Positions 1,674-38,827 of a DNA stretch of 64,000 bases are shown here, in pieces. Below the pieces are notes generated by a model. It worked only from the letters and a program-made list of their open reading frames with translations. It made no database searches and was not told the origin of the DNA. Source of the stretch: Rhodomicrobium sp. R_RK_3 (GTDB taxonomy: Bacteria > Pseudomonadota > Alphaproteobacteria > Rhizobiales > Rhodomicrobiaceae); NCBI RefSeq assembly GCF_002198715.1, contig NZ_MWLK01000030.1:252112-316111 (forward strand). The letters run 5' to 3'. Numbering within the stretch: the first letter of the stretch is position 1; every line of letters starts with the position of its first letter. Both the position numbers and the translations under genes were made by a program.

Positions 1674-2075
1674 ACTGAGCTTTGTGCAGGGCCACGTCCT
1701 GATATTCCCTCGTGACTGGGACGAATTTTCACAAGTGCTACCCCAGAGTCATTGTTTTTCATAAACTGTCATTGATTTTCATAGCTTCCACCCATTCGTG
1801 TGTTTGAGCTTGTTCAGTGCGAAGTCCTGATTTTGATGTTGGCGTGTTTCTCATTGCTCGGGGTGACAACGCGATGCAGCGCTTCGCTCATCAGGCCCGC
1901 CGGTTGGATATCTCGGTGGACCAGCTGAGCTGGGAATGTTTTAAGTATATCGTAAATGTAATTTTTCTCGAAATACCGGAATTTTATCATACCAGATATA
2001 CTATCGATGGCTGGGCGAGGATTTCGTGGCTATATTGCATGTGTCGTGATTCCCGTTTTTCCAGAAAAATTGCAG
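1674..2075. promoter_or_regulatory. AT-richer spacer and putative AbiEi operator
   Basis: About 400 bases without a convincing gene. The last 140 bases are markedly AT-rich. A 7-bp inverted repeat, GTATATC at 1945-1951 and GATATAC at 1995-2001, lies 75-130 bases upstream of abiEi. Known AbiEi proteins bind inverted repeats in their own promoter, so this is a plausible operator. Between 1817 and 1990 a short open frame exists, but it has no recognisable domain and I do not call it a gene. Confidence 0.35.
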
Positions 2076-8153: not shown

Positions 8154-9353
8154 ATGGCGAGTGGTTTTCGATTTTACGAATTCTTTGCCGGCGGCGGAAT
8201 GGCGAGGATTGGCCTGGGTCCGGAATGGACCTGCGCGTTCGCGAACGACAACGCCGTCCAGAAGGTGGCTGCATACAAGGCGCGCTGGGGTGAGGGCGAA
8301 CTGGACGAGAGGGGGGTCGACGAGATCGGTGTCGACGACCTGCCGGGGACCGCACACCTAGCCTGGGCTTCCTTTCCCTGTCAGGATCTCTCGATCGCTG
8401 GCAGCGGGCGGGGCATTGGCACGGCTGGTGAGCGGATCACGCGCTCTAGCGCGCTATGGCCATTCCTAGACCTCATCGAGGCTCTTAAGCTAGAGGGACG
8501 ACACCCTCGTGTCATCGCGCTGGAGAACGTTACTGGATTGCTCACTTCCAGCGGCGGCCGCGACTTCGCCGCCATATGTCAGGCGCTTGCCGGTATTGGC
8601 TATGACTTCGGTACCGTCGTCATCGACGCCAAGCACTTCGTACCACAATCGCGCCCGCGGATCTTTATCGTCGCCGTACGCGAAGACGTGCAGATACCGC
8701 TCGGCCTAGCGCATTCGGAGCCTATGCGACCCTGGCACACCGCCGGGGTTGTCAAGGTCCACGCCGATCTGAACGAGATCCTCACCAAGCGATGGCGCTG
8801 GTGGAACCTCGGTGAAGCACCGGTTCTTGCGGAGTGCGCGCTCCAGGAGGCGCTAGTGCTAGGCGCGGGCGCGAGTTGGCATACCGAAGCGGAGACCGCG
8901 CGGCTGCTCTCGATGATGCCGAGGTCGCATCTCTCACGGCTCGCGGAGGCGAAACGAGCAGGTCGCATCATGATCGGCAGCCTCTATCTTCGCATGCGAC
9001 CGGAGAACGGCGCGAATGTGCAGCGAGCCGAGATCGCCTTTGGGTCGACGCTTGGCTGCCTCCGAACGCCGCGCGGCGGCGGATCTCGGCCGAGGATCAT
9101 CATAGTCGACGGCGAGGAGGTGCGAACCCGGCTCCTCTCGCCGCGTGAGGCAGCGGGACTGATGGGGCTTCCACTGGATCATCCGCTTCCCGAGCGGTAT
9201 CAACACGCGTTCCAGCTAATCGGCGATGGGGTTGTCACGCATGTCGTACGTTTCCTCGCCCACACGCTAATCGAGCCCCTCGCTCAGGCGCCTCTCATGC
9301 ACAGCTCCCGCACGGCGCATCCGATCTCGATTCCCGAGGAGGAGCCAGCATGA
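8154..9353 (+). CDS. druM: C5-cytosine DNA methyltransferase, Druantia type II DruM
   Basis: 399 residues. The conserved blocks of 5-methylcytosine methyltransferases are present: SAM-binding FFAGGG (10-15), catalytic PCQDLS with C76, ENV (124-126) and QSRPR (165-169), and a late GLPLDHPLP-type block near the C-terminus. The enzyme methylates cytosine in a short host site. Its stop overlaps the next start (ATGA), and it is the first gene of a four-gene operon ending in a giant DUF1998 helicase, the gene set of Druantia type II. There it probably marks self DNA or works with the helicase. A stand-alone restriction-modification role is unlikely because no restriction gene follows. Confidence 0.85.
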   Translation: MASGFRFYEFFAGGGMARIGLGPEWTCAFANDNAVQKVAAYKARWGEGELDERGVDEIGVDDLPGTAHLAWASFPCQDLSIAGSGRGIGTAGERITRSSALWPFLDLIEALKLEGRHPRVIALENVTGLLTSSGGRDFAAICQALAGIGYDFGTVVIDAKHFVPQSRPRIFIVAVREDVQIPLGLAHSEPMRPWHTAGVVKVHADLNEILTKRWRWWNLGEAPVLAECALQEALVLGAGASWHTEAETARLLSMMPRSHLSRLAEAKRAGRIMIGSLYLRMRPENGANVQRAEIAFGSTLGCLRTPRGGGSRPRIIIVDGEEVRTRLLSPREAAGLMGLPLDHPLPERYQHAFQLIGDGVVTHVVRFLAHTLIEPLAQAPLMHSSRTAHPISIPEEEPA

Positions 9354-11875
9354 ATGAATCGCCCATCGTGCTGCCGACGACGTTTGTTGCGTGGGAGCGC
9401 GCGCTCGTGGATCGCTTCCTTCGCGCGTCCTACGGCGAAGATGCGTCACCGCTGCGTTCGTTCGAGATCACCGGGGATACGCTGGCAACTGCATTCAACC
9501 ACATTCCGTCCTCGGGTGTCGAGGCCGAGGCAGCGTTCCGCGAGGCGATGCGTTCGGATCCACAGGTCTGGCGGGCGCTCGCCCAGGGCCGGCAGCGCGA
9601 ACCCACTGCTAGCAGTCCGAGCTGCTTCGCATACCTTTGCATGTCACTCCTGATCGACACTCTACTCGACGGTGAGTATTCCGGTCGCGGACAATATCGA
9701 GAGCGCCTTCGCACCTGGCTCAGCACTTCGCGCTCGATGATGCAGCTGTCCGGCATCGCCGGAATGTGGAGGAGCCTGGCGTCCTGGCTCGATGAGCGTA
9801 TCGCCGCCGGCGAGGGTTTTCGGAGGCTCATGCTGCCCGACCCCCGGATGTGGACGCAGATCGGATACACCCGCCGCCTCTCCTTTCCGACCAGATCCGA
9901 CATCAAATTTCTTGAGCGCGTGCTCCTCAGCGTCCGAGGAGGTTCTGCGGATCCGCCGGGGCTAATCCGCGCCGTCGAGGCTGCCCTCGATCGCCGGGGG
10001 GCGTCGTGGGGCATGGAAACCGCCTTCGCCGAGTTCCGCGACGCGTTCCGCAGCGGCGGCGCCTCGAGCGATCACCGATTCTGGCGGCTCGTCCTACGGG
10101 CCAAGGGCGGCTCCGGGAGTGCCTCGGAGATGGCGAACGCGAAGCTGGAGATCGAGTTCGACGAGGACGGTCGTCGAGGCCTGAGGCTCGACTCCGCGCC
10201 TGCGATAGATCTCGGGGCGGCGATGCAGGCTCCGCCCGTGCTCCGGAGCGCCAACCTAGGCCTTGCGGCAACTCGCGGGATCGTCTTCTTCCGGCAGGTC
10301 GGAATGGCTCACTGGCTGGCCGACGCCGAACCGCCGCCTGGAACCGCACACGTCGGTGTCGCCGCGTCGCACGCGGCAATCGCCAGAGGCATGACGATTG
10401 CATTCGAACCGAGCGGAGGCTGGCTCTTGACCACTGCGCCGGCTTCACCTCGCACTGTCGACGATCTGCTCACACGGCTGCGCTTGGTACGCCTACGGCA
10501 GGAGCGGCTCATCGACATAGGCGTCGAGGGCGGTATCCGTATGGCGGGGGACTTTCTCGGCCGGGCGAGGTTCCTGCCCCGAGTCAACGCCGCCGCGCGC
10601 AGCGTGACCATTCGCCCGCTTTCGGAACAGGACGCCGCCGCTGCTGCAAGATGGATCGAAGGCAGCATCGTCGCGGATCAGGCTCTGGATGGACGTTATG
10701 AAATCTCGGTGTCGTTGGGACGCAGCGGCGATGCGCCGGAGTGGACGCGCCGGATCCAGTTCCGGCGGGACGCGCAACAGCATCCAGATCTTGGCGGCGC
10801 GGCCGAGCGCCAACCGCCGATCGTCGAATGGACAGCAATGGAGCCTGGACGCTGGCGCACCGTGCGGGAGCGGAGCCTTGCGTGGCAAAGCTTATACGGC
10901 GATGCAGCGGACCTCTTCGAAGCGATCTACGCGGCAGGGCGCGTGAAGCTCGCGGAAGCCGAGGTGATCGACCTGATATCCCGCGTCTCCGCAGGCGGCA
11001 CGTCGTCTTGGGACATTCTGCGTGCGATTCACGAAGCTGGCTTCGCAACGGCACGACAAAGAGCGGAATGGCGCGGACGAGTCTGGACGCTAGAGCCGCC
11101 GCAACTCGCCAACATAGGTTCAACGGTCATTGTCATGGGCGCGACGTGCGTCGCTATGCAGGATGAGTTTCGCCAAGTCGCCCAGCATGCGGGAGGCTCG
11201 CCCTTCCGCACGCTGGGACCATCGCCATGGAGCCCCCCAGTCACCGGCGCGGTCGGCGTTGTGGCTGAGCGCCTCTCCAAAACGCTCGGGTGGGCGATCG
11301 CCAAGGCACCGCGTGTCCCGCGCATGCTTCCCGGGCGGTTGGAGACCTCCACGCTGGTTGCGGAGCACCACGTGCTAGCGTCCAGTTGGGACTGGAATCG
11401 CCGCAGGTTCGTGCCAGGCACTGCTCCCGGGGCGGTTGTGTCGCTAACGCGTTGGGTCCATCCGAGCGGTCGGGATCACGACCAGTATCGAGTGAATAGC
11501 TGGAAAGGAGAGACCCGCCACGCCACCCGAGTGGCAGCGATCCTCCAGGCGCACGTAGTGGCGGGCCGACCATTATTTGCGTTGGAGGGCGACACCCTCG
11601 TACGTAGGTCCGCTGAAGGCGCTCTGCCGCTCGAATTCGCGCAGTCGCTGCGCCTTTCCGCGGGTGCCGGCGGCGGGCCGTGCGGGGACGGGAGCTACGT
11701 TTATCCGTTGGGCGATATGCTTCTAGCCAGTCTAGCGTCGGCCTTGCCGGGCTGCATCGAAGGGGTTCCCCACAGACTGACGGAGTTGGCGGACGTCGCA
11801 GCGATCGTGAGGTCGAGGCGGTCTGGCGGCCGCATCCGCCTGCGCTGGTCAGGCGGCACGGTGTCGGTGACATGA
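9350..11875 (+). CDS. druF: Druantia type II protein DruF (uncharacterised)
   Basis: 841 residues, starting within the druM stop (ATGA) and ending within the next start (ATGA). No recognisable catalytic motif, signal peptide or membrane segment. It is Arg/Trp-rich, with alternating helical and strand-rich parts, and the C-terminal third looks compact. Assignment to DruF comes from size and from its place between the methyltransferase and a coiled-coil protein ahead of a DUF1998 helicase, as in published Druantia type II loci. The order of the F and G names is from memory of the system and could be swapped. Role in defence unknown. Confidence 0.65.
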   Translation: MNESPIVLPTTFVAWERALVDRFLRASYGEDASPLRSFEITGDTLATAFNHIPSSGVEAEAAFREAMRSDPQVWRALAQGRQREPTASSPSCFAYLCMSLLIDTLLDGEYSGRGQYRERLRTWLSTSRSMMQLSGIAGMWRSLASWLDERIAAGEGFRRLMLPDPRMWTQIGYTRRLSFPTRSDIKFLERVLLSVRGGSADPPGLIRAVEAALDRRGASWGMETAFAEFRDAFRSGGASSDHRFWRLVLRAKGGSGSASEMANAKLEIEFDEDGRRGLRLDSAPAIDLGAAMQAPPVLRSANLGLAATRGIVFFRQVGMAHWLADAEPPPGTAHVGVAASHAAIARGMTIAFEPSGGWLLTTAPASPRTVDDLLTRLRLVRLRQERLIDIGVEGGIRMAGDFLGRARFLPRVNAAARSVTIRPLSEQDAAAAARWIEGSIVADQALDGRYEISVSLGRSGDAPEWTRRIQFRRDAQQHPDLGGAAERQPPIVEWTAMEPGRWRTVRERSLAWQSLYGDAADLFEAIYAAGRVKLAEAEVIDLISRVSAGGTSSWDILRAIHEAGFATARQRAEWRGRVWTLEPPQLANIGSTVIVMGATCVAMQDEFRQVAQHAGGSPFRTLGPSPWSPPVTGAVGVVAERLSKTLGWAIAKAPRVPRMLPGRLETSTLVAEHHVLASSWDWNRRRFVPGTAPGAVVSLTRWVHPSGRDHDQYRVNSWKGETRHATRVAAILQAHVVAGRPLFALEGDTLVRRSAEGALPLEFAQSLRLSAGAGGGPCGDGSYVYPLGDMLLASLASALPGCIEGVPHRLTELADVAAIVRSRRSGGRIRLRWSGGTVSVT

Positions 11876-13968
11876 CTGCGGGAGGAAACTGGTACGCCGG
11901 GCGCCTAGCGCGGAGAATGGGCGCGCGCGTGTCGGTGGACGTGCTCGCGATGGAAGGATCCAGCGGCTGGGAACTTGTTCGCTATCCGCGGAAGCTCTTC
12001 CCAAAGAACGGGCAGGTCGAACTACTCAGCGCATCTGCCAACTCTTTTCGATCAGGCGAGTGGCTCGTGTTCCAGATCATGGCCAGCCCGCGACCGAACG
12101 CACAACCGTCCCGCATCAGCGCGCATCGCATCCTATCGCGCTTCGCCGACCTCCAAACCCTGGGCACGGTGGAGGCCGCCCGCTTCCTTTTCACGCGGGA
12201 GGGATGGGATGGGGCGATCAATCCGGGGCACTGGACCGTGAGGTTCAGCGAAGACTGTATCCTCACGCTTCAACTCGCTCGTAGCCCGGATGGCCGCCTG
12301 CGTTGCGTAGACCGGAGCCTTAGCGAGGTGGACTGCTACACCTTTGAAGCGGGGAATCTGCTCGGCGAACCGGCGGCGGAAAATCCACAGCAACTCTACG
12401 ATCTGCACAGCGAGCGGCCGCTGGTCACTTACAACTGGTCTCCGGGCGCAGATTACGTCGCGCACGTCGTCCGCGCCCTGGCGGGTGCCGACGATCCAAG
12501 GCTGCCGGAGCTGATCACCTGGCTCGAGCTGCATCGCGACGAGGTGAGCGGGCGGATCTCGGCAATCGGTACCGACCACAAGCTCGCATTCGAAGCGCTG
12601 CGTTCCGGTGAGCTCGCCGCAAGACTCACAGCGGACCGAGAGGTGATGTCTGCATATCTCGACGCTGTGAGGATCGACCCTGCGATCGCGGCCGCGGTTG
12701 AGCAAGCGGTAAGAGCGGAGGCCGTAAGGTCACGCGAAGTGGTGCGCACAGAGATAGCGGCAGAACTGGCTGCCGAACAGAGCGCCCGGCGGGCGGAGCA
12801 GGATGCAAAGAGCCTAGCTCGTGAGGCGACGCTCGAGCTGGAGCTGCAAGCGCAGATCACCGATCGCGAGCGCGAGCTCAGTGAAGCGCTCGAACGGCGC
12901 ATCGCCGAACGCGATCGCACCGCGATCGCGGCATCCAAGGCCGAGTGGGAAGCTGCGGTGGCGGAGGTCGAGGCTTTCCGAGCGAGCGTCTCGGACATGA
13001 AACGCGAACGGGATGCGCTCGCCGAGGAGGTCGAAGCCCTTAAATCCGAGGCAGAGCGCCAGAGGGAGTTGGTACGCGTGGCGGAGGGTCGATTGACGGA
13101 ATTGGAACGCGATCTCGCCTCGACAGTACAGCGCTCGGTAACCCGAGCCGTCGCAACGCTACCCGTGATCATGTCCAGCTCCGCTAGGCCAATTGACCGC
13201 GCAGAATTGGGCGAGCAAATTGCGCGCTGCGTGCTGCTCACAGGTGTTGGCAAGCAGCTGATGATGAGATTCGCGGCCTACCTCCTCTCCGGAGAGGTGC
13301 CGATCCTTGACGGGCCACAGGTCGAGGACTTCTCGCTAATCGCCGAGGCGCTTCTCGCCGCCGGCAGGCTGGTGTCTTTCGACGCGGACGCGACCATCAT
13401 CGCGCCAGAGGACATCTGGTCGCGTCCAGGATCGCGGCTCGATACCCAGGTTGCCCAGGCCGCCGTGCTGGCGAGTACAGGATATACCTGCCTCGTCAAG
13501 CTGCACGAGATCGATCGTTCGGCCGCCCGTTGCTGGTATCCGGCGATTTGCGCACTGGCGCGGCGAGGTCTGCTGCCAAGGCGGCTGCTGATGTTTGCTA
13601 CCCTTTCGGACCCAGCATCTGAAGAGGCCGCGGCGTTGCCTGCCAATGCCTGCCGGCTGACGGTGGACAGTGCGGTGGCCGAGGGCGCGGCGCTCGTCGC
13701 TCCGGGGCTTCTCGGGAGCGGCACGAACGCCACGGCGTTGCACCTCGATCCGGGCGACCGGCCGACCGATCTCTCGTCCGCGATGGCGACGCTGCCTGCA
13801 CTCGCCGACCTTGGCATTGGACTCGACATTGCGACATCCTTGAGGCTTGCCAGGGCGGTGGTCGAGACCGAGGGCCTCGCACCACCCAACTCTGGACGGG
13901 CGTTGGAGACGGCGCGGAACTTTTGCCGGGACACTCGGCGCGATGAAGTCGGCGGGACCGCCGGATAA
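11872..13968 (+). CDS. druG: Druantia type II protein DruG (coiled-coil, uncharacterised)
   Basis: 698 residues from ATG 11872, which overlaps the druF stop as ATGA; the frame stays open upstream to 11680 but this coupled start is preferred. Residues about 280-430 form a long, highly charged coiled coil with heptad-like Glu/Arg/Ala repeats (for example RAEQDAKSLAREATLELELQ). The flanking N-terminal and C-terminal parts look globular, without known motifs. A long coiled coil suggests a scaffold or oligomerisation role linking the methyltransferase and helicase; this is inference. It is separated from druE by 22 bases. Confidence 0.65.
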   Translation: MTAGGNWYAGRLARRMGARVSVDVLAMEGSSGWELVRYPRKLFPKNGQVELLSASANSFRSGEWLVFQIMASPRPNAQPSRISAHRILSRFADLQTLGTVEAARFLFTREGWDGAINPGHWTVRFSEDCILTLQLARSPDGRLRCVDRSLSEVDCYTFEAGNLLGEPAAENPQQLYDLHSERPLVTYNWSPGADYVAHVVRALAGADDPRLPELITWLELHRDEVSGRISAIGTDHKLAFEALRSGELAARLTADREVMSAYLDAVRIDPAIAAAVEQAVRAEAVRSREVVRTEIAAELAAEQSARRAEQDAKSLAREATLELELQAQITDRERELSEALERRIAERDRTAIAASKAEWEAAVAEVEAFRASVSDMKRERDALAEEVEALKSEAERQRELVRVAEGRLTELERDLASTVQRSVTRAVATLPVIMSSSARPIDRAELGEQIARCVLLTGVGKQLMMRFAAYLLSGEVPILDGPQVEDFSLIAEALLAAGRLVSFDADATIIAPEDIWSRPGSRLDTQVAQAAVLASTGYTCLVKLHEIDRSAARCWYPAICALARRGLLPRRLLMFATLSDPASEEAAALPANACRLTVDSAVAEGAALVAPGLLGSGTNATALHLDPGDRPTDLSSAMATLPALADLGIGLDIATSLRLARAVVETEGLAPPNSGRALETARNFCRDTRRDEVGGTAG

Positions 13969-13990
13969 CGCCGGATAACAGGAGAGACGG

Positions 13991-16900
13991 GTGCTTGATC
14001 CGATTGGCGGCTTCGAACGAATAAAGGACTTCTTCACGTCGTACGTGGAGACCAGCTTCCGCATCTCCGATCCCGCGGTCGCCGCCGCACGCTATGAACT
14101 TCTGCGGCGCCCCGATATCTTCGCGACACTCCCCTTCGTCGAACCAGTGCCGCGTTACCGCTCCAGCGACCACCTCCTCGAGGACTTCGTCGACATGGAC
14201 GGAGGCCCTCTCGAACCGCTCTCGCGAGGCGCCCGCGTCGCCTTCGTGGAGCTCGCCCTTTCCGGTTTGTTCGACGGCCGTCCTAGTGACGGCGAGCTAC
14301 GTCGCCGATCCATATACCCACCGTACCGCCATCAAGTAGGCATGCTGGCCCGTGGTGTGCAGCCAGGTCATCCAGGCATCGTCACCTCCGGCACGGGCTC
14401 GGGCAAAACCGAGAGCTTCATGCTTCCGGTACTCGCCGCCATCACCAACGAGGCCGTCAGGTGGGCGAGACCTTCGGCGGGGTACCTCTCGAACGATTGG
14501 TGGAACACGCCACGTTCGCGCTGGGCGCCTCAGCGCGCCGGGGAGAACAGGCCAGCTGCGGTGCGGGCGCTCGTCCTCTATCCGATGAACGCGCTCGTCG
14601 AGGATCAGATGGTGCGTCTTAGGCGGACCCTCGACTCCGACGACGCGCGAAGCGTCATGGACGTCCGGTTTGGCGGAAACCGCATCTTCTTCGGCCAGTA
14701 CACGGGCGTGACGCCAGTGACTGGGTACGAGCGCCATCCCCGCATTTTCGGGGAGGAGGCTGAACGCAAACGGCGTGCGCGGCGGCTGCGTGAGCTTCGA
14801 GCGACGATGTGCGCGCACGATGAGAACCAAGCGGCCGCCCGACGGCACGATGCCACGGTGATCGCAGAGGCGCTCGCCGCAGGCAAGAGAGCTCCGGATT
14901 TGACTCGGTACATCTTTCCGTCGCTAGACGGTGCGGAGATGGTGTCGCGGTGGGACATGCAGGACAGCCCCCCCGACCTGCTGGTGACCAACGCCTCGAT
15001 GCTCGGTGCGATGCTCGCGCGCGAGGTCGAGCAGGGTATGTTCGAGCAAACTAGAGAGTGGCTGATCTCAAACGATGACGCCTATTTCTATCTCGTATTC
15101 GACGAGCTCCATCTGATCCGCGGTTCCGCCGGCACTGAGGTCGCGTTTTTGGTCAAAGCCCTGATCCAACGGCTAGGGCTCGACCGCCCGGGACAACGTC
15201 ACAAGCTGAGGATACTCGCCTCTTCGGCGTCGCTTCCGATGGACGATGAGCCAGGCGTCCAATCGCGTCGCTACCTCCGCGACATGTTCGCCCCGTTCGG
15301 CACCAGCCGCGGCCCAGAGGATCTCGGTTCTGAGAAGGCAGACTTCTGGGAGGAATGCGTTGTCCGCGGAACGGCCGAGCTTCCCGAATGGGCCGGTGGC
15401 CGCATCCCTGGGCGGCCTTTCGCCGATCTCCTGCAAGTATGCGCCTCCGGATCGGACTTCGTGGCGCGGCTCAATGATGCCGATCATGTGATGGAGGCGA
15501 TCGGGGCCGCTGCTGACGCAGTTGGCGTCGCTCGCGACACACGCATGGTGCCGGCGCTCGCCGAGGCGGCCGCTGCGATTCTTACCCAGGCCTGCCGGGA
15601 CGGCGACAGCGTGCGTGCGCGATCGGTCGACGATATTGCCAACCGAGTCTTCAACGATGAAAGCGGCCCAATCGCAGTCCGAGGTTTGATGCTGGCACGC
15701 GCTTTGCCAGAGGCTGAAGCCTTCAACCAGGCCAGTCCACACCCCGCCACTCCCTCATTCCGCGTACACTGCTTCGTGCGCAACATTGAAGGGCTGTTCG
15801 CGGCACCGTCGGTCGACGCCGAGGGCCGCGTCACGTATGGCAGTCTTGGCGTAGAGCGCGGGATGTCGCACGCCACGCCGGCACCCGGTGAAACGCGGGG
15901 GCCGCGGCTCTTCGAGATGCTTTATTGCGAGGCCTGCGGGGACCTCCTGATGGGTGGTCAGCGGGGCACCATGAACGGCGGCCACAGCGAGACCGAACTC
16001 TTACCATCGACCACTGAGCTTGAGAACCTACCAGAGCGGGCGGCGGCGGAGTATTACGACCGCATGACCTTCGATCAGTTCGCTGTCTTCTGGCCGCGTC
16101 GATCGGAGCCGCAGCGGCCAGAGAGTGGCTTCGACGAGTGGGAGTCGGCGAGCCTTAACCCCGAGACTGGCGTCGTCAGTGTGGGACAAGCGGTGCCCGA
16201 TGGATCGATCGCCGGTCATCTGTACTTCCAGACGGACGCGGCGGTCCGGCGTGGTCGCACGCTGGATGTGAAGTCGGCGCAGCCCTTCTGCTGCCCGAAG
16301 TGCGGCACCGACTACTCCAACCGGCCATCAACAAGCCGGTCGCGATCGCCGATCCGCGCGTTCCGCACCGGTGTCAGCAAGGCGTCCCAGCTCGTGGCGA
16401 CGGAGCTATTCGAGCTACTCTATGCGATTGGTGCGGCCCCGAAGTGCATCGTGTTCTCTGACAGTCGGCAGGACGCGGCTAACCAGTCGCTCGAGATCGA
16501 ACGACTCCACCTGCGCGATCTTCGTCGTGAGATTCTGGTGTCGGTCGCCCGCGCCTACCTCGCTCGGCGGACGGCCGAGACGCTCGATCCGACAGAGACG
16601 ATGGCGCGCATCAACGAGCTAATGGGCACCGATCCCGCGGCGGCCATGGCTTTAATGGGGCAGTTGAGCAGTCAGAACGGCGATCGGCAGGTAAGCGTCC
16701 CCAATAGGAAGGTGCAGCTTGAGCGCATCTTCGACTACCGCGCGGACGGACGGGGAGACGTCGGCGAGCTAATCGCCGAGTATGTCCGCCTGGGCGTTCA
16801 TCCGTTCGACGAGGTGGGCCTGAAGACGTTCCAGCGCCGGCCTTGGTACGACGCATTTCAGGAGAATGACGGTGCCATCTCCTACAACCCAGGGCTTTCG

Positions 16901-19840
16901 GACACCGACCGCCAGCAGCTCTGGCTAAAGATCTTCGGTGAGCAGAGTGAGCTCGTGGACGACGTCATCTTCGCGAACACGTTCTTCGCTCTGGAGGAGA
17001 CCGGGCTCGCATATCCGTCGCTGTCCCGCGATGCCGGCGATGAAGTGGACCGCATGGACGTCTGGGTCCGGGTCTTCTCGAGCGCCACCCGCGTCCACGA
17101 GAACAAGTACTTCGACGCGACGCGAGTACGAGAATGGGGGGATTCGTCCGCCGTGCCGCGGACGAATCGGGTTGCCAGGTTCGCGCGCGCCGTTTTCGGT
17201 GACGACGGCGGCATAGGCCTGGACGGTATTCTCCGCCGCCTGGGTACGATGGGGCACCAAAACGGTATCATCCGCGTCCAGCGCGTCTATCTGCGCATTG
17301 CCCGAGAGGATGATCCGTACTGGCGCTGCGGCTCGTGCGAGCGCGTCCACATGCACCGCGGTGTGGGGATCTGCACCCGCTGCTACTCGCCGCTCGCTCA
17401 GGATGAGACCGGAGCCGTCCTGGAACTCTGGCGATCCAACTTCCTCGGACGACGGATCGTACGCGGGCAACAGGAGGGCGTCAGGCGCTTCAGACTACGA
17501 TGCGAGGAGCTCACGGGGCAGACTGACGACTTCTCGGACCGGCTGCGCAAGTTCAAAGGCATCTTCGTTGATGGCGAGGACCCGGTCTCGCGAAGGGCGC
17601 GGGAGATTGACATGTTGTCAGTCACCACGACTATGGAGGTCGGCATCGATATCGGTTCGCTGCAGAGCGTCTACCAGGCGAATATGCCGCCGCAGCGCTT
17701 TAACTACCAGCAGCGCGTGGGTCGCGCTGGTCGTCGCGGACAGGCCTTCTCACTCGTCGTTACATTTTGCCGCGGCCGCAGCCACGACGCCTATTACTTC
17801 GCGCATCCTGCGGCCATCACAGGTGATCCGCCGCCACCCCCCTTCCTCGCCGTCGATCACGATCCCATTCCGATGCGGCTGCTGCGCAAGGTGTGGCTGA
17901 GGGCCGCCTTCGACCTGCTGAGGCGCGAATGCCAAGACCAGGGCGTGGGTTTTCCCAGCGATGGGCTGGTACCACCCGACGTGCACGGGGAGTACGTCCC
18001 TACGGACGAATACTATGGCGACGTGCCCAGCGAGGACTGGCAGGCTGAGTTGCGACGCGCGCTCGAAGCCACCATCAACGTGCGCGACGGGTTCGCTGCC
18101 GCCGCCGCCATCGATCCGCTGCAGAGGGCGCGCCTGCTCAAGCGAGCCACCGTCAGCGCGCTGATCGAGGAGATCTGGGAGCAGCGCCCATTCAGGCCGA
18201 ACGGACGTCGAGGTCTCGCTCAGTTCCTTGCGGAGCGCGGCCTCTTACCAATGTACGGCATGCCAACCCGCGTCCGGCAGCTCTACCTCGGCCTGCGCCC
18301 GGAGACCGACGAACAGGACACCGATTACGACTGGTCAACGATGGATCGCGATCTCGATACGGCGGTATTCGAGTTCGCACCAAGCTCCGTGCTAACGAAG
18401 GACAAGAGGAAGCACCGCGTGGTCGGATTTACCGGCGACATGCTGCCGCCCGAGCGGCGGGGCAGAGATATCCTCGTGGCAGCAGCCTCGCAATGGCGGG
18501 AATCCGATCACTATGTTGCCCTGTGCATGCATTGCGGCTCGGCACGCTACTCTGTGGCTGTTCCCACAGCGGCTCTCAAGTGCGAGGACTGCAACGGGGA
18601 GGTCCCGTCCGACGCTTTCCAGCTCTACGTCACACCAGCCGGTTTCCGAACCGATTTTCGACCCGAGCGGAACGACCTCGACACCGTCGGGCGGATGGCG
18701 ACCCGAACCGTAGCAACTGTGCTGCACCAGGGCGAGACCGTCGACGCCCGAAACATCAGAGTTCGGAGGGGCGCTGGCGTCACCATCATGCAATTGAACG
18801 ATGGTCCGAATGACGATCAGGGATCTAGCAGCCGGTTTAGTGTAGTCGAAACGCCGGATCTCGGAGTTCCTATTCCGCCAACCGGCAATACGACCGAGAT
18901 CCAGGACCTGCAGGCCATAGACCCGGAGCACGCCTCCAATCCATCCTCGGGAGGTCGGTGGGCGGTGATTCCTAACAGCGCGACAACCTTCGGCCTGATC
19001 GCGAAGAAGGAGACGGATGCGCTATACCTTGAGATGAAGTCGTTTGATCCGCGACTGACACTTGATCAGGTCGCTCGCCGGGGATTGCGCTCTCATCTTC
19101 CGACGAGGGCGGCCGCGATAAGCGCGACCCAGATGTTGGTGCAGCGCGCCGCGTTGGATTTGGATGTATCCTCGGACGAGTTCGAGGCGTTAGAACCCCG
19201 GCTCCGGGATGGACGCCCCATGCTACAAATAGCCGACGCGCTCATCAATGGATCGGGACTCTCGCGCAGGCTCGGTGCCGACCGGAGCGACGGGACTCCC
19301 CACATCGTCAACCTGATGCGAAGCATTGTGGAGGACGATATGGAATGGCCTCTAGTAGACCTCCTATCGACCGACGAGGAAGGCGAGCACGCGGCGCGGT
19401 GTCAGACGTCATGCTATCGCTGCATCCAGCGGTACGGGAACCGTCCCTATCACGGCCTTCTCGACTGGCGATTGGGCCTTTCCTACCTTCGCGCGATGAT
19501 TGATCCAACTTACGGATGCGGCCTCGACGCTCGCGACCTGCGATATCCGGAGTTGTCGCTCTGGCCGCAGCGTGCGGCGGCCCTGGCGGAGACGGTGGCG
19601 TTGATGCGGCCCGGTTCGCTCACCGCGGGCACCCATGCCGCATCAGCGCTCCCCTGCCTCCACGAAGGCGGACGGACGGACGCTTCCAGCACTATAGTCG
19701 TCATACATCCGCTTTGGCGCCGCGACGGTGCGCTGGGATTGGCGCTCGCCGGTGGAGAGGCGATCCGCTTCGTCGACACATTCGAGCTGGAGCGCCGACC
19801 TCTTAGGGCTCTGGAGCAAGCGCGAAGAGCCGCAGCGTGA
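13991..19840 (+). CDS. druE: Druantia core helicase DruE (DEAD/DEAH-type, DUF1998)
   Basis: 1949 residues from GTG 13991, preceded by AGGAG at about 13980. Superfamily 2 helicase motifs occur in order: Walker A GTGSGKTES (about 134-142), motif Ia LYPMNALVEDQ, DELH (about 371-374), SAS, FSDSRQDA (motif IV) and QRVGRAGRRG (about 1241-1250). Several zinc-binding clusters are visible (CEACG, CPKCG, CGSCE...CTRCY, CMHCG...CEDC). The DUF1998/MZB Cys cluster CQTSCYRC lies near residue 1804. This is the signature protein of all Druantia types; it probably translocates on invading DNA. The gene is intact over 5.8 kb and forms the end of the operon. DISARM helicases share DUF1998, but the neighbours fit Druantia type II. 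Confidence 0.85.
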   Translation: MLDPIGGFERIKDFFTSYVETSFRISDPAVAAARYELLRRPDIFATLPFVEPVPRYRSSDHLLEDFVDMDGGPLEPLSRGARVAFVELALSGLFDGRPSDGELRRRSIYPPYRHQVGMLARGVQPGHPGIVTSGTGSGKTESFMLPVLAAITNEAVRWARPSAGYLSNDWWNTPRSRWAPQRAGENRPAAVRALVLYPMNALVEDQMVRLRRTLDSDDARSVMDVRFGGNRIFFGQYTGVTPVTGYERHPRIFGEEAERKRRARRLRELRATMCAHDENQAAARRHDATVIAEALAAGKRAPDLTRYIFPSLDGAEMVSRWDMQDSPPDLLVTNASMLGAMLAREVEQGMFEQTREWLISNDDAYFYLVFDELHLIRGSAGTEVAFLVKALIQRLGLDRPGQRHKLRILASSASLPMDDEPGVQSRRYLRDMFAPFGTSRGPEDLGSEKADFWEECVVRGTAELPEWAGGRIPGRPFADLLQVCASGSDFVARLNDADHVMEAIGAAADAVGVARDTRMVPALAEAAAAILTQACRDGDSVRARSVDDIANRVFNDESGPIAVRGLMLARALPEAEAFNQASPHPATPSFRVHCFVRNIEGLFAAPSVDAEGRVTYGSLGVERGMSHATPAPGETRGPRLFEMLYCEACGDLLMGGQRGTMNGGHSETELLPSTTELENLPERAAAEYYDRMTFDQFAVFWPRRSEPQRPESGFDEWESASLNPETGVVSVGQAVPDGSIAGHLYFQTDAAVRRGRTLDVKSAQPFCCPKCGTDYSNRPSTSRSRSPIRAFRTGVSKASQLVATELFELLYAIGAAPKCIVFSDSRQDAANQSLEIERLHLRDLRREILVSVARAYLARRTAETLDPTETMARINELMGTDPAAAMALMGQLSSQNGDRQVSVPNRKVQLERIFDYRADGRGDVGELIAEYVRLGVHPFDEVGLKTFQRRPWYDAFQENDGAISYNPGLSDTDRQQLWLKIFGEQSELVDDVIFANTFFALEETGLAYPSLSRDAGDEVDRMDVWVRVFSSATRVHENKYFDATRVREWGDSSAVPRTNRVARFARAVFGDDGGIGLDGILRRLGTMGHQNGIIRVQRVYLRIAREDDPYWRCGSCERVHMHRGVGICTRCYSPLAQDETGAVLELWRSNFLGRRIVRGQQEGVRRFRLRCEELTGQTDDFSDRLRKFKGIFVDGEDPVSRRAREIDMLSVTTTMEVGIDIGSLQSVYQANMPPQRFNYQQRVGRAGRRGQAFSLVVTFCRGRSHDAYYFAHPAAITGDPPPPPFLAVDHDPIPMRLLRKVWLRAAFDLLRRECQDQGVGFPSDGLVPPDVHGEYVPTDEYYGDVPSEDWQAELRRALEATINVRDGFAAAAAIDPLQRARLLKRATVSALIEEIWEQRPFRPNGRRGLAQFLAERGLLPMYGMPTRVRQLYLGLRPETDEQDTDYDWSTMDRDLDTAVFEFAPSSVLTKDKRKHRVVGFTGDMLPPERRGRDILVAAASQWRESDHYVALCMHCGSARYSVAVPTAALKCEDCNGEVPSDAFQLYVTPAGFRTDFRPERNDLDTVGRMATRTVATVLHQGETVDARNIRVRRGAGVTIMQLNDGPNDDQGSSSRFSVVETPDLGVPIPPTGNTTEIQDLQAIDPEHASNPSSGGRWAVIPNSATTFGLIAKKETDALYLEMKSFDPRLTLDQVARRGLRSHLPTRAAAISATQMLVQRAALDLDVSSDEFEALEPRLRDGRPMLQIADALINGSGLSRRLGADRSDGTPHIVNLMRSIVEDDMEWPLVDLLSTDEEGEHAARCQTSCYRCIQRYGNRPYHGLLDWRLGLSYLRAMIDPTYGCGLDARDLRYPELSLWPQRAAALAETVALMRPGSLTAGTHAASALPCLHEGGRTDASSTIVVIHPLWRRDGALGLALAGGEAIRFVDTFELERRPLRALEQARRAAA

Positions 19841-20004
19841 CGGTGGTGCTCGACATCGAGGATCATCTACCGCGAGCGGCAGAACGGCGACGGCTCACTT
19901 GTGGCGAGAATGGCGGACGTAGTCGACGACTCGGGCCAGCTGACCACTATCTCACACATCATCGGGAGCGCTTCGCGAGCACTGCCCACTAGTCACCGTG
20001 CCGA

Positions 20005-20445
20005 CTAATCCACCGTCGTCTTTGCTCGCAGGGCATTCTTGATATACTCCGGTTCACGAAGTCTGCATTCCCACAACACAAGAGCTCGCCAGCCGATGCT
20101 CTTGAGCCCCTCAATCGCCGCAGCGTCGCGTGCGATTGTCTGGTTGAACTTATTCGTCCAGTAATCGACGCGTGTGCGGGGCATCGTCGCGTGATCACAG
20201 TCCGGATGGCGATGCCAGAAGCAGCCGTGGACGAAGACCGCGAGATGATACCTAGGGAATACCAGGTCCGGGTTGCCTGGAAGATCTCGCCGATGGAGAC
20301 GGAATCGCAAGCCCAAGCGATGGGCCATGCGCCTGACGATTATCTCGGGAGTGGTGTCTCGAGAGCGGACCGCCCGCATCGTCTTGCGTCGTTGCTCCGG
20401 GTCTAGGTTATCCACGCTACGGGTTCCTTGTTGCGAGCTTGCCAT
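20005..20445 (-). CDS. vsr: Very short patch repair (Vsr) endonuclease
   Basis: 146 residues. It shows the full Vsr pattern: MRAVRSRDTTPE near the N-terminus, GNPDLVFPRYHLAVFVHGCF with the catalytic Asp, the zinc/active-site WHRHPDC, and the C-terminal TNKFNQTIARDAAAIEGL and VLWECRL. Vsr nicks 5' of T in T:G mismatches produced by deamination of 5-methylcytosine and starts repair to C:G. It points towards druE and almost abuts it, so it probably serves the druM methyltransferase by limiting C-to-T mutation. Such pairing of vsr with C5 methyltransferases is common in restriction systems. Confidence 0.9.
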   Translation of the reverse strand: MASSQQGTRSVDNLDPEQRRKTMRAVRSRDTTPEIIVRRMAHRLGLRFRLHRRDLPGNPDLVFPRYHLAVFVHGCFWHRHPDCDHATMPRTRVDYWTNKFNQTIARDAAAIEGLKSIGWRALVLWECRLREPEYIKNALRAKTTVD

Positions 20446-20564: not shown

Positions 20565-21527
20565 TCAAACGGATTTCTCGGCGAGTAAATGGTTGCCCTG
20601 GCTGGCAGACTTTGAATCCACGTCACCGCGCGCACCTTTCGACGTCTCTGGCGTCACGTCATATCCGTCCTTCACCTCGCTGACCCTGAAGCAAGTGCCG
20701 TTGAGTCGAAAGCTCCTGGGCAGAGAGATAGTGGCATGCGGGTTGGCCACCAGCTGAAAGTCGCCCCCAAGCAAGGCTGGCTTGTTCGCGGCATCGACAC
20801 GAGAGCAAAGCAGGCCGCTTAGCGCGGCGCACTCTTTTCGTTGAAACACGCCCGTTGGGACAAGCGCACCAGCGGCCTTGGGGATTTCATTTCGGAAATG
20901 ATAGCCCGTTCGAACGGCTTTCAGCGTCTCGCGATTTATGACGACGTAAAGGGGGCCAACCGTGAAGGCCGCCTGAAGGATACGGGGCGGCTCGGAATCA
21001 GCGTGTTCAAATCCAATCCCGCGTGGATTGATGGCGATCACGAAAGCGTCTTTGTCGGAGATCGTCCCGTTCTTGATCCACTGCGCGTATTGGCGATCAA
21101 ACTTGTCCGAGATGCAGTTTAGATATCGGAGGATGATTTTTTCTTCTGGAACATTCTGAACCGTCCCATCGTGCTTCATTTCTGGCACTTGGTCGGCATG
21201 GCCATCTGCCCCGCGCGTCGGTGAAACGGCCTCGAACCAGATGCGGCGGTCTTCGAAATCAACACCGAGATCCGGTCCCGGCTTGGGCGCATGAATCTCG
21301 AATCCATGCTCGATAAAATAGGCACCAAGATACATTTCCCAGTAGCGAGCGTCGAAATTGGTCCGCAGCTCGACGAGGAATTGGGCGTCAGCGTAAGGCT
21401 CAAAGAGGTCCCATAACGCTTCGCAATGCTCCTTCGCTTCCTTCAGGGGGCCACCCTTCGCTTCGCGAATGTTGATATAGCCGAGGTCCGTAGCGGCTTC
21501 ATTGGAGAAAAGGGGAGACTTAACCAT
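20565..21527 (-). CDS. Putative PD-(D/E)XK-like nuclease, unknown function
   Basis: 320 residues from ATG 21527, preceded by AGGAAG; an upstream in-frame ATG at 21566 is less likely. The segment ARYWEMYLGAYFIEHGFEI, then KPGPDLGVDF and IWFEAVSP, matches the restriction-endonuclease-like core: helix, catalytic Asp, then E-x-V in place of E-x-K. The remainder has no known domain. It lies between vsr and the Argonaute operon in the same direction as both, with about 400 bases and an IS3 scrap between it and the nuclease gene. It could be a further effector or an unrelated restriction enzyme. Confidence 0.5.
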   Translation of the reverse strand: MVKSPLFSNEAATDLGYINIREAKGGPLKEAKEHCEALWDLFEPYADAQFLVELRTNFDARYWEMYLGAYFIEHGFEIHAPKPGPDLGVDFEDRRIWFEAVSPTRGADGHADQVPEMKHDGTVQNVPEEKIILRYLNCISDKFDRQYAQWIKNGTISDKDAFVIAINPRGIGFEHADSEPPRILQAAFTVGPLYVVINRETLKAVRTGYHFRNEIPKAAGALVPTGVFQRKECAALSGLLCSRVDAANKPALLGGDFQLVANPHATISLPRSFRLNGTCFRVSEVKDGYDVTPETSKGARGDVDSKSASQGNHLLAEKSV

Positions 21528-21744
21528 AGGTGCTTCCTGGCTGCTCTGATAACGGGGATTATCCATCGACGCCGCGAGGGCAGTCTTGGCCGAATGAATT
21601 GAGAGACATTGGTTTTATACCTCGACGATTCGTAAATTTCGTCCACCAAATCAGCTTGATCTTCTACCCGAAACTGGGCCGAGTTGGATTGCAATTTTCC
21701 ATTGGAAGCTTTGGCTGAGGAAGGGAATTTCCGCAAAGCGCTCG

Positions 21745-21925: not shown

Positions 21926-23095
21926 TCACGGCCGCTTCATTTTCGATGGTCGCGGCAAGATAATTGCTGCAGAAACGCCTTTTATTGACTCTAGCCCTGA
22001 CTTCAGCTCTTGATGCTGTTCGGTCTGGGCACGATCGTCCCAGACGAAGGCTACGATGCTGTCGTATATATCTGTCTTGCTGAGATACAGGCTTGCGTCT
22101 GCTGCGATCTCCTCGATGACCTTCGCGCATGCGGCTTGACCGCTACCGCGCATGAATTTCACTTCGACAATCGTCCTCAGAGATGGAATGCCCAGATCGG
22201 CACGTGGATGCTTGTGGCCAATCGACGGCAGGTTTTCTTCGTCTTCCAGGTCTGCAAACACCGGTGCGAGAACTGTCCAAAGGAGATTTTGGACATGATA
22301 TTCGTTCTCGATCTCCCACCTTGCAATGGCAGAATTTGGCGTTCGACTTTTGGACTCGTATGTCCATAGTCGCATCGAGCGGGCCAAATTGTTCAATAAA
22401 CTAATGAGGTCGTTTCTGTTCGCGCCAGCGATGGCGATCTGCCCCTGTCGCGCAAGCACGTGATCGAACAAGGCCAATCGAACCGCGTCACGACCCGGAT
22501 CACCATTATGCGCTTCGAGCCGCGCTGTGATTTCCCAGCCCCGGGTCAGATCACCGCTATCACACGCTCTAATTCCTTTCGCATTCATGGCGACGGCCAG
22601 ATCGGGCGGCACCAGATGCAGACCGGTCTCGCCGACCACCAAGCGCGCGGCTCTGACAAGCCCCGTCTGCCATGCATCACTCGACAAATGCGCTTCCGAT
22701 TGAACCAGCAGCTCCCTCAGCCATTGGCGATCGCTGGGTTTCTCGTCTCTCACAATGCCGAGCGATACGCCAAGCAAAGCGATCCCATCGACTTCGAAAC
22801 GAAGCGGCCGCTTTGGCGCAAAGAAGCCTCGACCGGTGAGATGCGTGATTTCATTCTGAAGAAGATCGTATTCCTCGGGTGTCAGCAAACCGCTTGCCGC
22901 GCCGTAACCGAGCGCAGCGACATATTCGGGATGGAAGATCTTTCCCGCGAAGCCTAGCGCCTCTTCGACACGCCGCCGAAGCATAGCATCGTCCGAAATC
23001 ATCCATGCGCAGAATGCGCCAACGTGGCATGGGAGGTCTTTGCCTTTGGCGAGTTCTGAGACCAGCGTGGTTCGTACGTCATTGAGGTTCATCAT
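21926..23095 (-). CDS. Argonaute-associated PD-(D/E)XK nuclease (bAgaN-like)
   Basis: 389 residues from the double ATG at 23095/23092; the frame extends upstream inside the Argonaute gene, but the start just after the ago stop is clearly preferred. The C-terminal third contains the restriction-like core: PRADLGIPSLRTIVEVKFMR (catalytic D then E-V-K), followed by a helix ACAKVIEEIAADASLYL, as in Mrr-type nucleases. The N-terminal two thirds are helical and of unknown type. The gene begins 2 bases after ago. In known long-B Argonaute operons such nucleases are the effector that degrades DNA when the Argonaute recognises invader nucleic acid, which kills the cell and stops plasmid or phage spread. 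Confidence 0.75.
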   Translation of the reverse strand: MMNLNDVRTTLVSELAKGKDLPCHVGAFCAWMISDDAMLRRRVEEALGFAGKIFHPEYVAALGYGAASGLLTPEEYDLLQNEITHLTGRGFFAPKRPLRFEVDGIALLGVSLGIVRDEKPSDRQWLRELLVQSEAHLSSDAWQTGLVRAARLVVGETGLHLVPPDLAVAMNAKGIRACDSGDLTRGWEITARLEAHNGDPGRDAVRLALFDHVLARQGQIAIAGANRNDLISLLNNLARSMRLWTYESKSRTPNSAIARWEIENEYHVQNLLWTVLAPVFADLEDEENLPSIGHKHPRADLGIPSLRTIVEVKFMRGSGQAACAKVIEEIAADASLYLSKTDIYDSIVAFVWDDRAQTEQHQELKSGLESIKGVSAAIILPRPSKMKRP

Positions 23096-23097
23096 GA

Positions 23098-25389
23098 CTA
23101 CAAGAACCACAAGGTGCTGCCGATCTGCCCGAAATGGACCGCGTCGGAATCCCAGCCCTCTATGGCGCTGAGCCCTGCTAGCCGTTGGGCAATCAAATCT
23201 GAATAGCGGATAGTGATCGGGTAGGCCTCGGGCGCCAACATCCGCCACGAATGGCCGGAAAACTCGAACGCCTGCCGCGCCAAATAGGTCATGTCAGTAA
23301 AGGTCGAAAGCCGATGCAGCTTCAAGAGACAAGGTCTTGGCATTCCGTCTCTCGCCTGCTTCAATTCCGAAGCGCCGGAGAACACAATCAAAGACTCGCG
23401 GTCTCCCAATTTCATGTGCAGGCCCCGCTCGGGTCCGAGCACGCCTTTTTTGGGAGGGCGATATCCTATCCCCTGTTGCGAGTTGTCGAAAATTAGGTAG
23501 GGATGGCTTGGCGCGATATGGACGAATGCGAACGTCACGTTATCCAGATCGAGCGCTTCCACGGTTCGCTTTATCGCTTCGGCCTCCGTGTCTTTTGGCG
23601 GTTTGAACATGTGAAAGACGAGGCGGACTTTATCGGTGCTGCGCCAGTTATCCTGCTTGCGAACCGTCATAATCGATTTTTTCAGCGTTTCGTAAAGCGC
23701 CTCCGCATAGCCTTCGAACGGCACCACGGCGGTCCGATCACTGAGCAAGTAGCTTCCGTCACTAGAGAAAACGGTCGTAATGCCAACAAACCTCTGGCTT
23801 GATCCAATCCGGCTGCTCGAAACCGAATGCGACCCCAAGCCGATTACCAGTTCATGGGCGACTGTTTGCTGAGAGGCTAAAAGCCACGGCACGCCGCCCA
23901 GCTTCGCATAGGTTGCGAGGCTCATATGGTTCATCGAGAATACGAGTTCTGTGTCCGGCTGCCCCATCGTTTCCAAGCGCACGCTTTGGACAGGCACGTC
24001 CCGCTTCAAAAACACCGACTTGGTCGCATAGTATGGATTTGATCCGTCATCGAAGCTTTTGAACTCTTCTTCTACCTGGACGAGTGCCAAGTCCCATTTG
24101 AATCCTTCGTCCGTCGCCTGCGCTAAAGCGCGGCGGCTTGCCGCCAAATAGTCTTTGGCACTTGCGCTCTCGGAAGTGAAAAAGGTGACGCTGGGTTTTT
24201 CCAGGCAGAAGCGACGCAAAAAGCCATCACCGTACCGCGCCGTCTTGTGCTTGCCACCTGTGAGGGTCTCCGGCATGCCGTCGAGAAACTTCGCGACAAA
24301 GCGGTCGACTTGCCCCTCATATTTGCCCTGGCATACGACGGCAATTCTCAATCGCTTCGGACTGAACGTTCTCTGGTCATAAGGCCCATTCTTTTTGAGA
24401 CCCCGCTCGTTCCAGTCGTCCTTGCGCGTGCCGCTTGGGTCGAAAACGAGCACGGATTTTGGAATTATTTCCGTGGTCGGAAATTCTTGGCTCCCAGAGG
24501 CAAGCATCGGGCCGAACGTGAACTTCGCGCCGGGAACCGCCTCAAGCGAGGCCTTCTCTCTCAGGTAGGAAAGGGCATCATCAATCTGCTTCTTCCGGCC
24601 CGGCCCCGAATGAAGCGCCGCCGCTTCGGCTGCCGCATTGTCGAGAACCATCTGCGCGCTTCCGCAAAGGATTTGACCTATGCAGTAATCAAACGCTTCT
24701 CGCCGGGCTTCCAGGAAAGCCTCTGCCGCACAAACCGTTTCAAATCCTTCCTTATGATCCTCCAATATGAGGACATCGCCTTCGACTGCCACAACCCGCC
24801 CGACCAACATGCGCGGTTTCATGAGCCGCTCGTCACGAGGCGCAACCTCTATCTGCACGTATCGTCCCATCAGGGAAATGCCCAGCGCCATCAAATCCGC
24901 GCAGGTCCCCAATATCAAATTTTTCAGACGCGTCTCGCAGACAAGGCCCAGCGTTCCCTTATCGCGCGACCGATAGATCCAGCGTGTCTCGAATTTCAAC
25001 AACGTTCGTTTTTGTATCCATTCGGGTAGATCCCGGTGTTTCACCAGCCCCCGCTGCGCAGCGCCGATCACCGTTACCGGGGCGTCGAAGAGAATGTCAC
25101 GATTGCCGCTGAAAGCCCTGACAAGAGCAGCCGAGAACAGAGGCGGCCAGAGCGCAGGCGTTTTCGCAAGATCGACTTCTTCTCGGATATTCGCGAGCGG
25201 ACTTTGCCCGATGACGATCGGAATATCGACGATAGAGTTCTCGGCCCCGTCGCGCCGAAAGACGTGAGTTTCATGGAACTCCCTCCGCAATGTTTCCAGG
25301 CGCTCTTTCGCGTAAGGCTGTCGACCAATCAGAACTTGGGTCTCTCCTTGAATACCGATCGGCGCAAAATTTATGGTGTAATTCGACAT
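23098..25389 (-). CDS. ago: Prokaryotic Argonaute, long-B type, apparently catalytically inactive
   Basis: 763 residues, the length of full-size pAgo proteins such as that of Rhodobacter sphaeroides. The MID region has the guide 5'-phosphate pocket pattern (YYATKSVFLKRDVPVQS with Y, K, Q). The PIWI domain begins with ATYAKLGGVPWLL and HELVIGLGSHS and ends with the hydrophobic tail STLWFL buried in MID in this family. Where active enzymes have G-x-D for the first catalytic Asp, this protein reads GLG, and the later site reads HMFKPPKD, so the DEDX tetrad is not intact. Guided binding without slicing, with the neighbouring nuclease as effector, is the known logic for long-B pAgo. It is the first gene of the operon. 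Confidence 0.85.
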   Translation of the reverse strand: MSNYTINFAPIGIQGETQVLIGRQPYAKERLETLRREFHETHVFRRDGAENSIVDIPIVIGQSPLANIREEVDLAKTPALWPPLFSAALVRAFSGNRDILFDAPVTVIGAAQRGLVKHRDLPEWIQKRTLLKFETRWIYRSRDKGTLGLVCETRLKNLILGTCADLMALGISLMGRYVQIEVAPRDERLMKPRMLVGRVVAVEGDVLILEDHKEGFETVCAAEAFLEARREAFDYCIGQILCGSAQMVLDNAAAEAAALHSGPGRKKQIDDALSYLREKASLEAVPGAKFTFGPMLASGSQEFPTTEIIPKSVLVFDPSGTRKDDWNERGLKKNGPYDQRTFSPKRLRIAVVCQGKYEGQVDRFVAKFLDGMPETLTGGKHKTARYGDGFLRRFCLEKPSVTFFTSESASAKDYLAASRRALAQATDEGFKWDLALVQVEEEFKSFDDGSNPYYATKSVFLKRDVPVQSVRLETMGQPDTELVFSMNHMSLATYAKLGGVPWLLASQQTVAHELVIGLGSHSVSSSRIGSSQRFVGITTVFSSDGSYLLSDRTAVVPFEGYAEALYETLKKSIMTVRKQDNWRSTDKVRLVFHMFKPPKDTEAEAIKRTVEALDLDNVTFAFVHIAPSHPYLIFDNSQQGIGYRPPKKGVLGPERGLHMKLGDRESLIVFSGASELKQARDGMPRPCLLKLHRLSTFTDMTYLARQAFEFSGHSWRMLAPEAYPITIRYSDLIAQRLAGLSAIEGWDSDAVHFGQIGSTLWFL

Positions 25390-37726: not shown

Positions 37727-37783
37727 CGCATCCGTTCCTCGTAGGCAATCGGGCTCAAGTAGTCGAGTGTCGGCGGCGTGGAT
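37727..37783 (-). mobile_element. IS3-family orfB C-terminal fragment
   Basis: The minus strand encodes PPTLDYLSPIAYEERMRLA and a stop, the well-known end of IS3-family (DDE) transposases. The matching orfA start lies 1 kb to the right on the same strand, so both belong to one interrupted IS3 copy. Confidence 0.75.
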
Positions 37784-38766: not shown

Positions 38767-38827
38767 GAACCTCGGCCTCGCGCAGCATCCCAATAATCTG
38801 CTCCGTCACAAACCGCTTCCGTGCCAT
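38767..38827 (-). mobile_element. IS3-family orfA N-terminal fragment
   Basis: The minus strand encodes MARKRFVTEQIIGMLREAEV from ATG 38827, the classic start of IS3-family orfA. Together with the orfB tail at 37727-37783 it brackets the serine-recombinase remnant, so that element inserted into, or recombined within, this IS3 copy. Confidence 0.75.

Follow-up and report, generated by a model that had tools for sequence, protein, structure and literature searches.

The locus at positions 8154-20445 of the window, as we call the whole 64,000-nucleotide stretch analysed here, raises the question of whether its genes form a complete Druantia type II defence operon and why a gene for a Vsr endonuclease stands next to them. 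A preliminary description, made from the letters of the sequence, had listed a C5 methyltransferase, two large proteins, a 1949-residue helicase and a convergent vsr, and open reading frames for all five were found in that arrangement (Table 1). The four operon genes run in the same direction (+) in the order M-F-G-E and span positions 8154-19840. They had been described as joined by ATGA overlaps throughout, which holds for the druM/druF join (9350-9353) and the druF/druG join (11872-11875), but druG and druE are separated by a gap of 22 bases with an AGGAG ahead of the GTG start of druE. The open frame of druG begins at 11680; its probable start is the ATG of the ATGA overlap at 11872, for a protein of 698 aa, and the PADLOC DruG match begins at residue 68 of the longer frame. 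Between druE and vsr there is a single terminator-like site, where 0.7 would arise by chance, and no promoter-like site was found.

Table 1. Genes of the Druantia type II locus and mobility-related genes, in window coordinates.
Feature	Position	Strand	Length	Assignment and profile matches
druM	8154-9353	+	399 aa	C5 cytosine DNA methyltransferase; PADLOC DruM2 PDLC00028, 532.7 bits over 4-381; Pfam PF00145, 127.2 bits
druF	9350-11875	+	841 aa	PADLOC DruF2 PDLC00019, 814.5 bits over 8-839
druG	11872-13968	+	698 aa	PADLOC DruG2 PDLC00025, 480.2 bits
druE	13991-19840	+	1949 aa	YprA-family SF2 helicase; PADLOC DruE2 PDLC00014, 2367.7 bits over 1-1947
vsr	20005-20445	-	146 aa	Very-short-patch-repair endonuclease, convergent with druE; TIGR00632, 140.4 bits
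RlxS-like relaxase	26554-28296	-		Best match RlxS, 575.8 bits, under the model cut-off of 850
Resolvase-domain gene	37778-38872			38 bits
TraG	59260-61221			989.5 bits, cut-off 674

The search of the five proteins against the PADLOC defence models matched all of them, and for each of the four Dru proteins the type II model was the top match over nearly the full length (Table 1). Druantia type II was reportedly described by Doron et al. in 2018 as DruM, DruF, DruG and DruE. The PADLOC authors name DruM and DruG as requisites of type II besides DruE and DruF (PMC8565338), and the window holds all four requisite proteins. Among the Druantia types, the helicase scored 2367.7 bits with the type II model, 1214 with type IV, 472.9 with type I and 236.4 with the best type III model. 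Judged by these profile scores, the locus is a complete and ordinary Druantia type II operon, as had been proposed. DISARM (DrmA/DrmB/DrmMII) shares with the window a helicase of the YprA family and a C5 methyltransferase, and the PADLOC scores rule out DISARM or another YprA-family system: DrmA reached 29.0 bits against the 2367.7 bits of DruE2, DrmMII reached 102.8 against the 532.7 of DruM2, and DrmB was absent from the PADLOC matches listed. The translation of DruM contains FPCQ, ENV and QSRPR, which we take to be the motifs of a C5 methyltransferase.

DruE had been called a DUF1998 helicase. The helicase part of this assignment stands, with Pfam matches to DEAD and Helicase_C, but DUF1998 gave no Pfam match at E<=0.001. 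The protein has GTGSGKT at 134, DELH at 371, QRVGRAGR at 1241 and seven CxxC motifs, and C1804, C1808 and C1811 are invariant in seven DruE proteins. A solved relative in the PDB, 9wae_A, matched DruE with 2442.4 bits over residues 1-1944. Seven PDB entries (9wae, 9waf, 9wds, 9wdu, 9wdv, 9wdw and 9wdy) are close full-length relatives of DruE and are titled only 'Helicase'; a search of the open-access literature for the structure code 9WAE found no relevant paper.

DruF and DruG had been described as motif-less. Neither protein has a match in Pfam or NCBIfam at E<=0.001, and a single-sequence search of the PDB found no relative of either at E<=0.001, but DruG does have a recognisable predicted fold. 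AlphaFold2 models of both proteins were built from 42-row alignments. The DruF model is well folded (pLDDT 85.8), with a beta-sandwich-like stretch at 388-474; the fold searches gave no confident match, with a top Z of 5.4 for the small beta-sandwich stretch and a best Foldseek E of 0.096, and single-sequence pattern searches found no DruF relatives in viral contigs. The DruG model has an N-terminal beta domain, a helical and coiled-coil region at about 211-398, and a C-terminal AAA+ fold at about 441-698, with the placement of these domains unsure because the pTM of the model is 0.44. The structure nearest to the AAA+ fold is 2r44, a putative ATPase with Z 12.2 and the sole Foldseek row under E 0.001. 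RavA follows at Z 12.1, magnesium chelatase, MCM and BrxL score about 10-11, and McrB reaches 10.3 across 155 residues. At Z 10-12 and an rmsd of about 4, the modelled likeness to McrB, RavA and MCM is a fold resemblance only. A Walker A lysine is missing from the AAA+ part where one would be expected, so this part is probably not an ATPase. The N-terminal beta domain is perhaps OB-like, a guess prompted by exosome subunit chains that rank high in Foldseek, where the matched part is not given. The model, with its extended coiled coil and its AAA+ fold near McrB, RavA and MCM, fits the account by Bell et al. (2025, PMC12458937) of a homologue of Type IV CoCoNuT CnuB; a difference is that DruG of the window lacks the Walker A lysine. 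We infer that DruG may be this CnuB homologue, the equation being ours since the names DruF, DruG and DruM occur 0 times in the available text of PMC12458937.

The product of the fifth gene is a true Vsr, with 140.4 bits for TIGR00632 (cut-off 97.85) and 102.9 bits for PF03852 (cut-off 27), and it is also matched by PADLOC's own Vsr model, described as a type II nicking endonuclease. The window protein and E. coli Vsr (1cw0) aligned over residues 15-136 with 104.8 bits. The active site, listed for the E. coli enzyme as E25, D51, H64, H69 and D97 in PMC12907096, is present in the window Vsr as E34, D60, H73, H78 and D107. In all 47 Vsr proteins encoded at DruE loci, E25, D51, F67, W68 and H69 (E. 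coli numbering) are unchanged, and D97 is present in 46, with one gap. Position 64 is H in 32 of them, D in 9 and N in 6; D at this position is described for the Vsr of Neisseria and Caulobacter, and the Neisseria enzymes with the D form are said to act on degenerate motifs (PMC12907096). The window thus has in common with the Dcm-Vsr pair of E. coli a C5 methyltransferase and a Vsr with the same catalytic residues. The arrangement is different: in E. coli, vsr sits in the dcm operon (PMC12907096), whereas the vsr of the window is convergent and lies 10.6 kb from the methyltransferase, past three defence genes.

The frequency of vsr at druM, which the preliminary description had suggested surveying, was determined at 87 DruE loci mapped by profiles, comprising the best 80 from a DruE alignment search of species genomes, six plasmid loci and the window. 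The window and the plasmid loci served as seeds for the Vsr, DruF, DruG and methyltransferase profiles, and type II was defined as at least 200 bits for DruF and at least 80 bits for DruG on these profiles, thresholds that were chosen after inspection of the table. By this definition 51 of the 87 loci are type II, and vsr was found at 36 of these 51 and at 35 of the 45 that have at least 4 kb of sequence on both sides. The six plasmid records came from a DruF search, and each has DruE, DruF and vsr in the surrounding 23-28 kb (vsr in 6/6). The pairing is therefore recurrent. Its absence from what we could consult of the literature is twofold: the account of Druantia in the PADLOC paper (PMC8565338), in the sections available, has no mention of the adjoining vsr that distinguishes the window operon, and the available portions of the open-access literature yielded no report of a free-standing vsr beside Druantia type II. 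While Druantia type II is known, its recurrent vsr accessory is apparently unreported.

Two further observations came from the locus maps. At the type II locus L041 (10001-15842), druE is broken into two frames; the adjoining vsr (G030:C1:687590-687793) contains a stop, so that both genes look inactive together. Five distant non-type-II DruE loci (L053, L058, L066, L079 and L081) also have a C5 methyltransferase and a vsr; vsr directly adjoins the methyltransferase in L053, L066, L079 and L081, and three of the five loci are Bacteroidota by record title.

To place these counts against the background of whole genomes, we searched 40 genomes, picked after inspection of the locus maps from those of the 48 genome loci classed as type II or type II-like. 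These 40 genomes contain 41 vsr matches in total: 31 are no more than 10 kb from the operon, among them the stop-interrupted gene of L041, and one more, in L072, lies at 11.9 kb. The other C5 methyltransferases of the same genomes have a vsr within 10 kb at 9 of 42 places, a control in which some fragments are counted as separate places and in which the two methyltransferases and the vsr of L078, whose operon contig was not identified by matching, are counted as elsewhere; the excess at the operon has P 6e-7. When the eight left-out loci (L019, L031, L032, L037, L044, L045, L050 and L052) are added, of which six are cut off less than 1 kb from the operon on at least one side and only L037 has a local vsr, vsr is found at 32/48 (P 2e-5). 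We also examined an even sample of the class, 115 genomes including that of the window, which was excluded from the counts. Here vsr lies within 13 kb of 19 of 69 C5 methyltransferase places (some of them fragments counted separately, with the window's row and seven weak places of 18.8-30.5 bits each removed), and a C5 methyltransferase lies within 13 kb of 19 of 26 vsr genes (with the window's row and two matches below cut-off removed). The class and same-genome counts together indicate that vsr generally accompanies C5 methyltransferases and does so with a higher frequency at type II operons.

The presence of vsr follows that of the methyltransferase at DruE loci in general. Of the 73 DruE loci that have a C5 methyltransferase, 46 also have vsr, against 0 of the 14 that lack one, most of these 14 being truncated (P 7e-6); with complete flanks only, the counts are 42/60 and 0/3 (one-sided P 0.03). 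The genome of the window (5.79 Mb, 99.49% complete) has exactly one PF00145 match and one PF03852 match, both in the Druantia locus, so the Vsr of the window has no other Pfam-visible C5 methyltransferase to serve. On the other hand, no vsr was found anywhere in the genomes of five type II loci (L011, L013, L015, L038 and L077), though a methyltransferase is present; L011, L015 and L077 are metagenome-assembled genomes of unstated completeness. From these five operon-bearing genomes it appears that vsr is not required for type II.

We consider it probable that the locus is a Druantia type II anti-phage operon in which Vsr is the repair companion of the methyltransferase. DruM would put 5-methylcytosine at its motif and so mark the host chromosome as self, while DruE, with DruF and DruG, would act on unmarked DNA or on structures associated with infection. 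The 5-methylcytosine that DruM would spread over the host could deaminate to T and give T:G mismatches, and Vsr would nick the T strand of the mismatch and lead to repair to C:G. By carrying its own vsr, a mobile defence island could enter hosts without one. The available portions of the open-access literature yielded no test of host methylation by DruM, or of a self mark, in Druantia type II. Counting against the repair reading are the five type II genomes in which no vsr was found and the finding, described below, that the divergence of Vsr follows that of DruE and not that of the methyltransferase.

If Vsr were instead a working part of the defence, it could provide nicks for the loading of DruE or substitute for a nuclease activity that DruE has lost, which we regard as distinctly unlikely. 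In its favour, Bell et al. (2025, PMC12458937) report for DruE of types I and II an inactivated Vsr-type domain at the C-terminus, predicted from modelled structure; however, a profile comparison of the Vsr alignment with the C-terminal 160 residues taken from 51 DruE proteins gave no sequence match. DruE of Druantia III is also reported to engage intermediates containing single-stranded DNA (PMC13192584). The positions of the genes point both ways. In the 38 loci that have the two genes, methyltransferase and vsr take ten different layouts of position and orientation around the F-G-E block; the distance between the two is at most 2 kb in 23 loci, and in the other 15 vsr stands apart from the methyltransferase. 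In 22 of the 38 loci no more than 247 bases separate vsr from the F-G-E block (median 165.5), as would suit a part of the defence, but in 21 of the 38 vsr is encoded on the opposite strand from the operon, which would not.

The history of the genes was followed in a tree of 71 Vsr proteins, in which three of the 28 background vsr loci (L095-L122) have no row at E 1e-8 (L116, L121 and L122) and one short row, L103, is left out. The type II label changes 14 times on this tree, against 23.7 times in shuffles, and at least five of the changes are forced by the starred branches. Because of these forced changes, vsr must have arrived at type II operons several times, though relatives also cluster. 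Such repeated recruitment, with type II Vsr interspersed among Vsr from elsewhere, argues against a Vsr that works as part of the defence, as do the type II genomes in which no vsr was found and the failure to see it at any of the 14 DruE loci that have no C5 methyltransferase, many of which are truncated.

Further evidence in favour of a defence role comes from the distances between the proteins. With DruE allowed for, the distances of Vsr and the methyltransferase over the 38 loci have a partial rank correlation of -0.02 (permutation P 0.62), whereas those of Vsr and DruE have one of 0.38 (permutation P 0.0015); the methyltransferase distances between groups are saturated, with a median of 2.0, and the label permutation ignores shared ancestry. 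The contrast grew when only pairs with alignable methyltransferases were used: at four distance cut-offs the methyltransferase gave -0.10 to 0.00, and DruE gave 0.63-0.64. As examples, L005 and L067 are close in Vsr but unrelated in methyltransferase, and for L034 and L064 it is the reverse. The co-inheritance of Vsr and methyltransferase that would be expected of a strict cognate pair was thus not found, and since the divergence of Vsr tracks DruE, Vsr is not locked to one methyltransferase lineage. Either the specificity of Vsr is too loose to need matching, or Vsr is tied to the helicase side, and we place loose specificity well ahead, because of the five operon-bearing genomes in which no vsr was found and the repeated arrival of the gene.

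We see only a small chance that Vsr serves as a lock, so that loss of druM with Vsr retained would cause DNA breaks and vsr would stabilise the methyltransferase and the island. In Caulobacter, where ScmA and VsrA are unlinked, the DNA-damage response and the fitness loss of an scmA mutant depend on vsrA (PMC12907096), and the conserved active sites of Vsr at DruE loci agree with such a role, but the effect could be a by-product of ordinary repair and not what keeps the two genes paired. The smallest chance goes to mere neighbourhood, since defence genes generally cluster and this island is dense with other defence genes, of which vsr might be just one more, a reading already disfavoured by the concentration of 31 of the 41 vsr genes of the 40 whole genomes at the type II operon, by a rate of vsr well above that at other C5 methyltransferases of the same genomes, and by the multiple origins of vsr on the tree.

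The conjugative setting that had been noted for the locus is supported by the relaxase and TraG (Table 1), by TrbB (415.6 bits, cut-off 304.55), TrbC and a ParB-like protein to the right of the Druantia operon in the window, and by matches to TrbE, TrbL, VirB8 (TrbF-like), CagX (TrbG-like) and TrbI just past the right end of the window. The relaxase, TraG and Trb genes are probably the transfer module of a Tn4371-like element. The single PF00589 integrase match of the contig (C24:219428) lies about 32.7 kb to the left of the window, the ends of the element were looked for and not found, and no tRNA was found in the window or in the four flanking loci scanned. The element is likely, but not conclusively, an ICE. 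From its neighbourhood, the operon may spread with the conjugative element.

Several other systems were observed around the operon. A Zorya type I set (ZorA 816, ZorB 292.6, ZorC 457.8 and ZorD 1077.6 bits) lies about 6 kb to the left of the window, at L091 6213-13857 (G000:C24:238324-245968); Druantia III and Zorya II have been reported as a synergistic pair (PMC13192584). On the minus strand at 21926-25389, a gene for an Argonaute (pAgo_II, 891.6 bits) overlaps or abuts one for a DpnII/MboI-like helical restriction nuclease (458.8 bits), and between this pair and vsr, at 20565-21566 (-), is a gene with a partial likeness to PD-T7-5 (52.7 bits) and PD-T7-1 (48.5 bits). An AbiE-type toxin-antitoxin pair is at 2007-4308 (+), with AbiEi at 20.7 bits, just under its cut-off of 22.2, and AbiEii at 132.7; the AbiEii frame also has a WYL domain match. 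An ArdC-type anti-restriction protein is encoded at 55531-56451 (-), to the right of the operon, and shares its element with several defence systems.

It had been suggested that the companion vsr reflects methylation by DruM so frequent that mismatch repair becomes necessary; methylation may be this frequent, although no vsr turned up in five type II genomes. That vsr came to these operons repeatedly is indirect genetic evidence for activity of DruM on the host genome and for a cost of its 5-methylcytosine. The recurrence of vsr also raises the chance of a role beyond repair at type II operons. Beside or instead of repair, Vsr could act in Druantia type II as a fifth working part that nicks or locks and is kept by selection with DruE rather than with the methyltransferase. 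This is unlikely in our estimate; if true, Vsr would give the helicase an entry point or make the loss of DruM costly. Regardless, the survey suggests that defence annotation should count vsr as a frequent accessory of Druantia type II.
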